64,000 bases of DNA. Source: Pseudorhodobacter sp. PARRP1. Lineage in GTDB: Bacteria; Pseudomonadota; Alphaproteobacteria; Rhodobacterales; Rhodobacteraceae. Shown piece after piece: positions 61,547 through 64,000 of this stretch. Position numbers and translations under genes: made by a program. The notes under the pieces were generated by a model. The model did no database searches, was not told the origin of the DNA, and worked only from the letters and a program-made list of their open reading frames with translations. Position 1 is the stretch's first letter. The number at the start of each line of letters is the position of its first letter. The stretch lies in the NCBI GenBank assembly GCA_002256245.1, contig NKIU01000003.1:1-64000 (forward strand), given 5' to 3'.

Positions 61547-61961
61547 GAAGTCCTCACACTCGGAAGACGCAGACCATAGCCTGACCACCGCCTGAGTCCA
61601 AGGCAAGGACAGTGCAATTTTGTGGATCAGTTTGTGCCGAAGTATCGGTAGCGTGATATCCGAAGCGCAGCAGAAATTTCCACCAAAATAAGACCGAGTG
61701 ATGCGACTGATCATCAATAGGTGGACCCAACGTGACAACTCTGTGCGGGGCGTCATCGCGCCATTTGCCGGGGCTGTTGACCCATCGCCTTATGTTTCAC
61801 ACAGCACATCACGTTGACGCCTGAACCGGGCACCCTGGTGTCAACTAGCTAGTGGCGCGCCAACCCCCTTAAAGCGGTCATTCTATGCACTGGATCGAAC
61901 GTCCTCTTTGGGCCGATGTCGTTTGGGGGGGTTGACTCTCCGCCCCTCCCCCATGGCGCGA
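61547..61961. other. Intergenic, no gene recognised
   Basis: The stretch holds the ABC ATPase upstream region and the area downstream of prfH. GTTGACGCC...GGTGTCAAC (about 61812-61845) is a hairpin-like dyad with one G-T pair that could end the rtcB-prfH transcript. No reading frame has family resemblance. Confidence 0.5.
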
Positions 61962-62597
61962 CTAGGTGACTTCCCGAAACTCCTCCCCCTGGAAAACCTT
62001 GCGCGGAGCGCCGCGCTGGATCTGGCCGTGCAGGTCATGCAGTGCCGTCCCCTGCGTGGCCAGGGCCTATGAACGGTCGGCCGAGATTAGCACCGAAAGC
62101 CGCTCCAGCGCCGTGCGGCGGTTCATATGCTGCGAGCGGCTGTCGCGGACCACGACCGACCAAGCTCGCCCCTCCGGATCCACCCAGCGGGCGCGGATGG
62201 CGCTGGAGGTCTTGTTCTGGTGCTGCCCCCCGGGACCGCCGGCGCGGATGGCCTGCATCTCCACCTTTTCCCGGTCGATCTGGATCGCTTCGGGCGCAGG
62301 GGCGAGGCGGAAGATCTGGGCGAACCAATTCTTCCGGGGGTGTTTCGGGCGCAGCCTGCTCGTGCAGCGCCAAAGCACGCTGCCCTCCCAGTCCCGCGCG
62401 ATTTCCGCAGCGCCAATACCCGTCAGCACGATCACCGCCGAGGCGGGGCCATGGGGCGCAGCGCGCTCGGCGACGTCCAGATCAAGGCCAAGAAGTTCTG
62501 CCTCTTCGGCCAGCCGGACCAACAGATGGGCAACGGCCTGGCGGCATTCGCCGGGCCCGTTGCCGCTGGACAGCAACAGGATTTCCCTCTCAGTCAT
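61962..62597 (-). pseudogene. prfH: Peptide chain release factor homologue PrfH with in-frame amber codon
   Basis: PrfH is a stop-codon-independent release-factor relative that pairs with RtcB2. Residues 1-176 include an N-terminal PrfH domain, the GGQ loop in RAGGPGGQHQNKT (GGQ at 123-125) and RSQHMNRRTALERL. At codon 177 (62069-62067) there is a TAG. The same frame then continues for 34 codons, ALATQGTALHDLHGQIQRGA, then PRKVFQGEEFREVT, to a final TAG at 61962. This tail aligns with the end of E. coli PrfH (HHQIERGNPRRTFTGMAF). No frameshift is needed. The gene is therefore full-length apart from one nonsense codon, and it overlaps rtcB by ATGA. Confidence 0.85.
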
Positions 62598-63739
62598 TCG
62601 GCATCTCCTGCACTGGCCTTTCCGGCCGTCTTGAAAGTGATCAGCGGCACCAGCCGCGCGATGGGCCGTGCTAGGCTCAGATCGGCCAGGTCGCGCAGCA
62701 CCGCTTCTGGGTTCTTGTAGGCGGGCCCAGCCTCCTCCACCAGCAGATCGCGGTCCTCGCAGACTACACGCCCGCCAAAGCGGTTGCGGGTCAGTGCGGC
62801 GAGGTCGGATTTTGTCTTGCGCACCCGTCCGTGCATCGAAGCGCGGTCATAGCGCCGCCCCGCCCCATGCGACACCGAGCCGAGCGCCTCGGGCACAAGA
62901 TCCGGCACCGACATGAGGTAGCTCGGCGCATCGCGCGACCCGGCCAAAGGCACCAGCCCGCGATCAGCCCCGGCCGCGCCCTTGCGGTGAAGCCAGAGCC
63001 CGTCCTGCGCCACGACTTGGTTGTGGACCGTGTCGCAGATCAGGCTGGCCGCGCAGGACAGCGCATCGGCCGCAAGTCCTGCGATCAGCGCACGGTTCAG
63101 CCGCGCCCAGGCCATCGCGGCATCGTGCAAGGACAAGTAGCGCTCGCCCGCCGCGCTGTCGGCCGCGTAGCCCTGCTTCCAGCTGTCATCCAGCCCTTCG
63201 AAGATCTGCGCCCCCCGCCCGCGAGAGCCGGAATGGACCAGCAGGCACAGATCGCCCACCCGCAGCGTGGTTGCGGCCAGATCGCTGACCTCCTCGACCG
63301 CCTGCACCTCGCAGAAGTGGTTGCCACCGCCGATACTGCCCAAGCCTTCGGCCCCGATCAGCCCTTCCAGACCTGCCGCAGCCAATGCGCTGGCGGCCGG
63401 GTAAGGATCGGCGCCATGGTCCAGGACGGCCAGGCGGCGGACGGCCTTGTCGATCTTCAGCCGGTGCCGCGGAAGATCCAGCCGCCAAAGCGCCATGCCG
63501 CAGCCGATGTCCGGCCCGACGAGTTGCGGCCAGATCCGATCGGCGAGGAAGGCCGCACCGACCGGACCGAAGCGGCCGGGATGCAGATCGGGGAAGCCCG
63601 CAACGGCCGCCATGCCGGGCCATGCGGCCACCTGCGCAAGCTGATCCTCGGCCCGGCCTTCGATCCAGGCTTGCGAGGAATAGAAACGGGAGATGCGGGC
63701 GCGCGCAGCGCTCTGCTCCCCCAAAATGGGATTGCCCAT
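62594..63739 (-). CDS. rtcB: RNA ligase RtcB family protein (RtcB2 type)
   Basis: A 381-residue RNA 3'-phosphate ligase. The metal and guanylate sites are visible: Cys80 in GPDIGCGM, GGGNHFCE (Asn140, His141), HSGSRG (His169), VHNQ (His239) and the guanylylated His291 in SVSHGAGR. Its sequence and the downstream prfH identify the RtcB2-PrfH system, which in E. coli repairs decoding-centre-cleaved 16S rRNA. I start at MGNPILGEQS; an ATG nine codons upstream is also possible. Confidence 0.92.
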   Translation of the reverse strand: MGNPILGEQSAARARISRFYSSQAWIEGRAEDQLAQVAAWPGMAAVAGFPDLHPGRFGPVGAAFLADRIWPQLVGPDIGCGMALWRLDLPRHRLKIDKAVRRLAVLDHGADPYPAASALAAAGLEGLIGAEGLGSIGGGNHFCEVQAVEEVSDLAATTLRVGDLCLLVHSGSRGRGAQIFEGLDDSWKQGYAADSAAGERYLSLHDAAMAWARLNRALIAGLAADALSCAASLICDTVHNQVVAQDGLWLHRKGAAGADRGLVPLAGSRDAPSYLMSVPDLVPEALGSVSHGAGRRYDRASMHGRVRKTKSDLAALTRNRFGGRVVCEDRDLLVEEAGPAYKNPEAVLRDLADLSLARPIARLVPLITFKTAGKASAGDAE

Positions 63740-63807
63740 CGGGTTCGTCTTTCCATGACAAAACAAACGGCCAAACCGGCCGCAGATGGATCGACGAGTG
63801 TAAAGAG

Positions 63808-63820
63808 AGCCCCTGGGGCT
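63808..63820 (-). other. Short GC hairpin between leader ORF and rtcB
   Basis: On the minus strand AGCCC-CAG-GGGCT is followed by CTCTTTACA. It lies just after the leader-ORF stop codon. It could be an attenuator stem or nothing. Confidence 0.3.
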
Positions 63821-63821
63821 G

Positions 63822-63872
63822 TCAGACCCGCGTCAGATCCGAAGGAAGGGTTGTGATGATGAATGCTGTCAT
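63822..63872 (-). CDS. Possible 16-aa leader peptide upstream of rtcB
   Basis: ATG with a full AAGGAGG Shine-Dalgarno seven bases upstream, encoding MTAFIITTLPSDLTRV and a TGA stop. It lies about 80 bases before the rtcB start. No family is recognised and no run of one amino acid is obvious. The strong ribosome site is the only support. Confidence 0.4.
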   Translation of the reverse strand: MTAFIITTLPSDLTRV

Positions 63873-63903
63873 GTCATGCCCTCCTTGGCTGCGGGTTTCT
63901 GTG

Positions 63904-63926
63904 GAGCGATGCGTATAGCATCGCTC
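63904..63926. repeat. 9-bp perfect hairpin near the right edge
   Basis: GAGCGATGC-GTATA-GCATCGCTC, upstream of the leader ORF on the minus strand. It could be an operator or a terminator of a gene to the right of the window. Confidence 0.5.
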
Positions 63927-64000
63927 ACTTGCGCGGAAGTGGGCGCCAAAAAACGCGCGATGATCTGATGCACTTAGGATACAGGGCAGCCAAACGCAAA

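Follow-up and report, generated by a model that had tools for sequence, protein, structure and literature searches.

Does the amber codon inside prfH of Pseudorhodobacter sp. PARRP1 disable the gene, or does it mark a point at which a relative of the release factors is made in two lengths? The window, by which we mean the whole 64,000-nucleotide stretch analyzed, carries prfH directly behind rtcB, with the start of the one overlapping the stop of the other as ATGA (Table 1). The prfH frame opens with ATG at 62597, meets TAG at 62069-62067 after the GGQ motif, continues through 34 sense codons, and closes with TAG at 61964-61962. The in-frame amber codon of the original prediction is confirmed as the one stop, at codon 177, in a 211-codon frame on the minus strand; start, GGQ motif, and final stop are present as claimed, with no other lesion in the frame. 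We put the probability at roughly three in four that this codon is an ordinary, recent, inactivating nonsense mutation, which truncates PrfH and makes prfH an early pseudogene.

Table 1. Features of the rtcB-prfH locus, with positions counted from the first letter of the window.
Feature	Positions	Strand	Basis
prfH frame, 211 codons and final TAG, with one internal TAG	61962..62597	-	profile match, alignment to an intact relative
In-frame TAG, prfH codon 177	62067..62069	-	stop in this column in 1 of 55 aligned sequences
GGQ motif, residues 123-125, intact	62223..62231	-	invariant in 24 relatives
PrfH tail past the stop, 34 codons, out of reach of normal translation	61965..62066	-	conserved positions in 24 relatives
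rtcB, PrfH-linked kind, 381 codons, intact	62594..63739	-	TIGR03073 match
GC-rich hairpin followed by a T-rich stretch, terminator-like, between leader and rtcB	63767..63783	-	weak alone
Leader ORF, 16 codons, MTAFIITTLPSDLTRV, 133 nt upstream of the rtcB start	63822..63872	-	counterparts in 51 of 58 loci
Shine-Dalgarno-like GGAGGG of the leader ORF	63879..63884	-	sequence

The interrupted frame is more than chance, because a full-length match runs over all of it with a single stop. With the PrfH of Stagnihabitans tardus (L004), an intact relative at 93% identity, as the query, residues 1-211 aligned at 91%, with 1 TAG inside. NCBIfam TIGR03072 (PrfH) is by far the best family for the window protein: the 176-residue head scores 133.8 bits (E 5e-39) and the whole frame across the stop 158.8 bits, both below the curated cut-off of 166.65. 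This shortfall appears to be largely a matter of clade divergence, since the intact proteins of L004, L006, and L008 themselves score only 160, 150, and 163.7 bits; L018 and L037, also intact, score 199.9 and 225.9. Divergence of the clade is also indicated by Foldseek, in which L004 is 38% identical to the solved PrfH 7sa4_8 and 34% to 9mor_A. Of the prediction that the flanks of the stop are fully conserved with PrfH, the full-length match stands and the full conservation does not: among 24 aligned relatives, the tail has 3 invariant columns (H190, R195, and G196) and 3 nearly so (F202, G204, and F207). The C-terminal part of PrfH is encoded behind the in-frame TAG, so that the frame up to its first stop lacks a complete C-terminus.

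The stop is private to the window. When 55 prfH genes were aligned (the window, 38 open-frame loci from the contig search, L016, and 15 genes from the family sample; these sets may share genomes), the window alone had a stop in this column, and the other 54 of 54 carried sense codons of many kinds. The stop of L016 sits at a different place. Aligning relatives at this codon had been proposed as a check on the original prediction, and its outcome, a lesion absent from the orthologues, is one by which pseudogenes are recognized. Tyr, which the original prediction wrongly expected at codon 177, is found there in none of the 54. The column itself is poorly conserved and variable, and the tail behind it is less variable. 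A fresh inactivating mutation, one of the readings first offered, is supported as the likeliest: the stop is private, and the lost tail holds invariant positions.

Predicted structures suggest what the truncation would cost. AlphaFold2 gives pLDDT 87 and pTM 0.78 for the 211-residue intact relative, and pLDDT 88 and pTM 0.59 for the 176-residue product of the window. In the intact model, a long helix (156-183) is followed by a helix (185-191) and 2 strands (200-203 and 208-210); the window model ends within the long helix, and 2 strands of its first domain are shorter. The 3 best solved matches of the intact model in Foldseek are PrfH on damaged 70S ribosomes (9mor, 7sa4, and 9mq4), and the alignment of each of the two solved PrfH sequences runs through the tail. 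In RF1 and RF2, the corresponding C-terminal elements return to the first domain. PrfH is a release-factor-like protein that partners an RtcB-type RNA ligase, and we propose that a private nonsense mutation leaves it with 176 of its 211 residues. Termination would occur at the UAG through RF1; the product would retain the GGQ loop and lose the end of the long helix leaving the GGQ domain, along with the C-terminal helix and the strands behind it. Such a protein would be unable to act on a damaged ribosome, prfH would be an early pseudogene, and the upstream rtcB would be unaffected. Judged from sequences and models, loss of PrfH function is likely.

It is improbable that the 176-residue product is instead a working, shortened PrfH. 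Its GGQ motif and first domain are complete and its head is under purifying selection, but the tail that it lacks is kept in the 24 aligned relatives, with the invariant H, R, and G, and the short-form model has the lower inter-domain confidence. Less credible still is programmed or leaky readthrough of the UAG to yield 2 lengths of PrfH, the regulatory point that the original prediction entertained and that the evidence speaks against. The frame and tail do persist beyond the stop, with the final stop in place, but the stop occurs in 1 of 55 sequences and the genome has open and complete frames for RF1 and RF2, which of the two is which being our judgment by eye from sequence motifs; ArfB is present as well, over its cut-off. 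Programmed readthrough calls for a stop conserved in relatives or a tRNA that decodes it. The stop is not conserved, and none of the genome's 43 tRNA places was found to have a CTA anticodon, in a list that lacks Tyr and Ile tRNAs and is therefore incomplete; a further search added none over the cut-off. ARAGORN, run on 41 loci covering the 43 over-cut-off places, made 48 tRNA calls, some counted twice, and amber suppression was rejected on the lack of CTA among these calls, within the same incomplete list. Nor is the context unusual: among 49 non-overlapping window ORFs of at least 150 codons, 9 end in TAG, 7 of these as TAG-G, which is also the context of the prfH stop. Re-initiation past the stop was rejected as well, since the tail holds no in-frame ATG, GTG, or TTG. 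The amber codon in a release-factor relative looks like a coincidence, with no evident RF2-like autoregulation, because PrfH is described, in the section of PMC9223846 that concerns it and in the titles of the structures 7sa4 and 9mor, as acting on damaged ribosomes.

The main rival, although an unlikely one, is a sequencing or assembly error, in which case the genome would have a sense codon here and PrfH would be intact. The substitution stands alone in a frame free of other lesions, the tail gives no firm sign of decay, and rtcB is under selection, all of which would fit an error. Against it, the assembly summary is clean (28 contigs, completeness 100%, contamination 0.09), and no homopolymer indel is involved at the site; we take the base to be probably real. 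The stop is either very young or not real, because decay is not independently shown and purifying selection is visible before it. Relative to L004, dN/dS rises from 0.154 in the part before the stop to 0.78 in the tail, and rtcB has 0.166; the excess in the tail is weak (changes 7:3 versus 12:24, Fisher p 0.067). Across 59 pairs with pS below 0.5, the tail-to-head ratio of amino-acid changes between the window and L004 is 3.01, the third highest. The higher ratios (6.87 and 3.54) and the next (2.75) are those of the three pairs within a trio of intact genes, L008 and L009 from Leisingera and L010 from a Rhodobacteraceae MAG; the remaining pairs all lie at or below 1.85. Where amino-acid changes can be assigned, head and tail have 5 and 3 on the window branch and 4 and 0 on the L004 branch; 3 and 3 are ambiguous. 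These substitutions lean towards a relaxed tail, but relaxed selection is not accepted as proof of age: the numbers are small, and the intact trio reaches similar ratios. An inactivating nonsense mutation, probably recent, remains our preferred reading.

A wider survey places this mutation among others. Among 394 family genomes, prfH was found in 19, of which the genome of the window is one. At E 1e-20 it was found in none of 14 genus mates, and 8 of these mates are at least 90% complete. Damaged copies account for 4 of the 19: the window, G040 (which lacks the 5' part and has an in-frame TAA and a deletion of the GGQ segment), G141 (unreadable in frame over roughly the first 27 codons, with a TAG there), and G396 (with other sequence in place of the 3' part, close to a contig end); G078 was not judged. 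The 43 best loci of the contig search (L004-L046) also hold 4 damaged copies (L016, L017, L041, and L045); L040 has unread bases, and the weak matches L047-L083 were left out. L016 and G040, and likewise L017 and G396, appear to be the same copies and are taken as such. There are then 6 distinct damaged copies, 5 of them beside an open rtcB frame, in a sample of loci found through prfH, so that rtcB-only remnants are under-counted. The lesions of L041 and L045 are frameshifts and are possibly sequencing errors. prfH is dispensable and often broken, and, by these genome comparisons, it seems to break while rtcB stays.

Several individual loci deserve mention. Damaged prfH lies beside an open rtcB frame in L041, L045, L017, and L100, and some of these cases may be sequencing errors. 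In the close relative Szabonella alba (L016), the prfH remnant has decayed strongly, with an in-frame stop and the GGQ segment and 5' part gone, and has no rtcB frame upstream. L156, read on the minus strand, joins rtcB and prfH in one open frame of 589 residues, either a natural fusion or a lost rtcB stop. L164 has the PrfH-linked kind of rtcB and no PrfH frame found within its 4 kb locus. Plasmid relatives comprise 7 records at 66-78% identity, the best of which (Tritonibacter mobilis) covers 79% of the query.

Decay of prfH has precedents. Baranov et al. 2006 describe, in the relevant part of PMC1586002, pseudogenes of prfH whose lesions include deletions, frameshifts, and nonsense mutations. 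Those of Escherichia coli K-12 and other bacteria resemble the window in that a PrfH-family gene behind a companion is disabled by a lesion, nonsense mutations being among the known kinds. K-12, according to the same part of that paper, has lost about 1,000 nt across both genes, whereas the window has one stop in prfH alone and an open rtcB. The passages of PMC9223846 on E. coli report that RtcB2-PrfH of strain ATCC25922 protects against colicin E3 and that the truncated operon of BW25113 does not; the ATCC25922 operon consists of the same pair of genes, of which the window has PrfH alone truncated. The amber codon of the window is one more decaying copy of a gene already known to decay, and the case speaks against readthrough autoregulation in a release-factor relative.

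The rtcB gene in front of prfH is of the PrfH-linked kind: it scores 294.8 bits against TIGR03073, whose cut-off is 271.8, and lies upstream of prfH. Against PRK09588 it scores 376.5 bits (E 1e-112), below the cut-off of 407. The original prediction was right that the RtcB partner is intact, with 381 codons; its suggestion that the operon is otherwise kept does not follow for prfH, as 4 of the 5 other damaged prfH copies also adjoin an open rtcB frame. No polar effect on rtcB would be expected, because prfH comes second in the pair. PADLOC assigned 0 families to the PrfH head and RtcB. This rtcB is the only one found in the genome, and might have another role in RNA repair even with PrfH broken.

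The leader ORF upstream of rtcB, which has a strong ribosome-binding site, is more interesting than the amber codon, and is the part of this locus worth specialist attention. It was present in 15 of 15 loci first examined, the window included. The criteria, set after viewing these first loci, asked for an ORF of 9-20 codons that has a 4-nt ribosome-binding core and whose ATG lies between -160 and -105 relative to the start of rtcB. By them, the leader is found in 51 of 58 rtcB-prfH loci, in a count that is not blind, versus 0.8 expected from dinucleotide shuffles of the same regions; it is found before 0 of 48 other genes of the window. The 58 loci are not independent: some are close relatives, and the contig-search and family sets may share genomes. 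Outside the 58 stand loci with no rtcB start that the rule could place (L020, L026, L042, L044, L046, L096, and L097), with no usable rtcB frame (L016, L024, and L099), with too little upstream DNA (L158), or with unread bases (L040). Universality is rejected: the leader is absent from 7 of the 58 (L029, L095, L101, L102, L155, L157, and L159) and, with the criteria fixed, from all 7 of the more distant rtcB loci fetched later (L162-L168). It is present in L156, the locus with the fused frame. Leader peptides near the window follow MT..I...LP.DLTR; those of Bradyrhizobium read MT.MSRRPVEGIA and MTAIIRCSARSRRA, that of Pseudovibrio MSFRVSPFKGH, and MTTITLILCRTSRD and MQALITLCRSRLA occur in other genomes of the same phylum.

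Compared with column-shuffled alignments, the RNA between leader and rtcB folds better, at p<0.05 in 7 of 8 alignments, with structure z of -4.9 in the window's group and -6.9 in the Mameliella group; the alignments cover 41 of the 51 leader loci, grouped by hand, and one of the 8 combines two others. The leader RNA of the window, taken alone, folds slightly better than shuffles (z -1.55). A by-eye reading and the Mameliella-group consensus, with two-sided changes in 8 of 43 pairs and non-canonical combinations in 25 of 258 cells, suggested one pairing model, in which the leader end pairs with the spacer and the spacer with the rtcB ribosome-binding site. Duplex tests of the two pairings leave this model unsupported in general, each reaching p<=0.05 in 7 of 51 loci with mean z of -0.02 and -0.36. 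An intrinsic terminator is not a general mechanism either: a U-run hairpin occurs in 6 of 51 leader loci, with 1.6 expected. Over 61700-64000, 1 terminator-like site was found versus 1.7 expected, no more than chance, and the sole Rfam match, gut-2, fell under its gathering score.

One precedent for such a leader exists. PA5471.1, a translated 13-residue leader of Pseudomonas aeruginosa, controls the RtcB-like gene armZ (PA5471), which shares an operon with PA5470 (prfH); the operon is induced by ribosome-targeting drugs, and transcription attenuation has been proposed in the sections of PMC12057347 and PMC3516279 that treat it. A 2025 review of MexXY, in its passage on this leader, calls PA5471.1 apparently unique. 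It is the only precedent found in print; the open-licence PMC texts searched gave no report of a leader before rtcB-prfH outside Pseudomonas. In a riboswitch screen, the structural-entropy hits from E. coli include a stretch at -107 of prfH,ykfJ, and the entry names no leader ORF (PMC4448311, in part). The P. aeruginosa and window loci are alike in that a short leader precedes an RtcB-like gene, behind which lies a PrfH gene. They differ in that the leader of the window is known from comparison alone and the PrfH of the window is broken; the P. aeruginosa leader also lies about 250 bp upstream according to the relevant part of the 2012 review, and the window leader 133 nt (PMC12057347, PMC3516279). 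The comparison covers layout: most of the 58 loci have a small ORF, equipped with a ribosome-binding site, at a defined distance upstream of rtcB, yet none of the 7 distant ones does.

By analogy, the alphaproteobacterial leader may exert the same kind of control as PA5471.1. We infer this because leader attenuation is proposed for the armZ-PA5470 operon and because PRK09588, the cluster to which PA5471 is linked, is also matched by the window rtcB, below cut-off. Broadly, we lean slightly towards the view that a translated leader of 11-17 codons, which senses the state of the ribosome, governs RtcB-PrfH operons in many alphaproteobacteria and in some members of the phylum that are more distant, that PA5471.1 is one case of this, and that a silent operon lets prfH break repeatedly. 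Damaged or drugged ribosomes would falter on the leader, the leader RNA would refold, and the repair genes would be made. With the operon silent until ribosomes are hit, prfH would escape selection in quiet habitats and break again and again, as in the window. If this reading of the leader is true, PA5471.1 would be one case of a widespread sensor of ribosome damage. If the leader controls RtcB-PrfH as PA5471.1 is thought to control armZ, many bacteria would share a simple switch, one that senses broken ribosomes through the attempted translation of about a dozen codons, and the inducer of the RtcB-PrfH repair operon would become directly testable.
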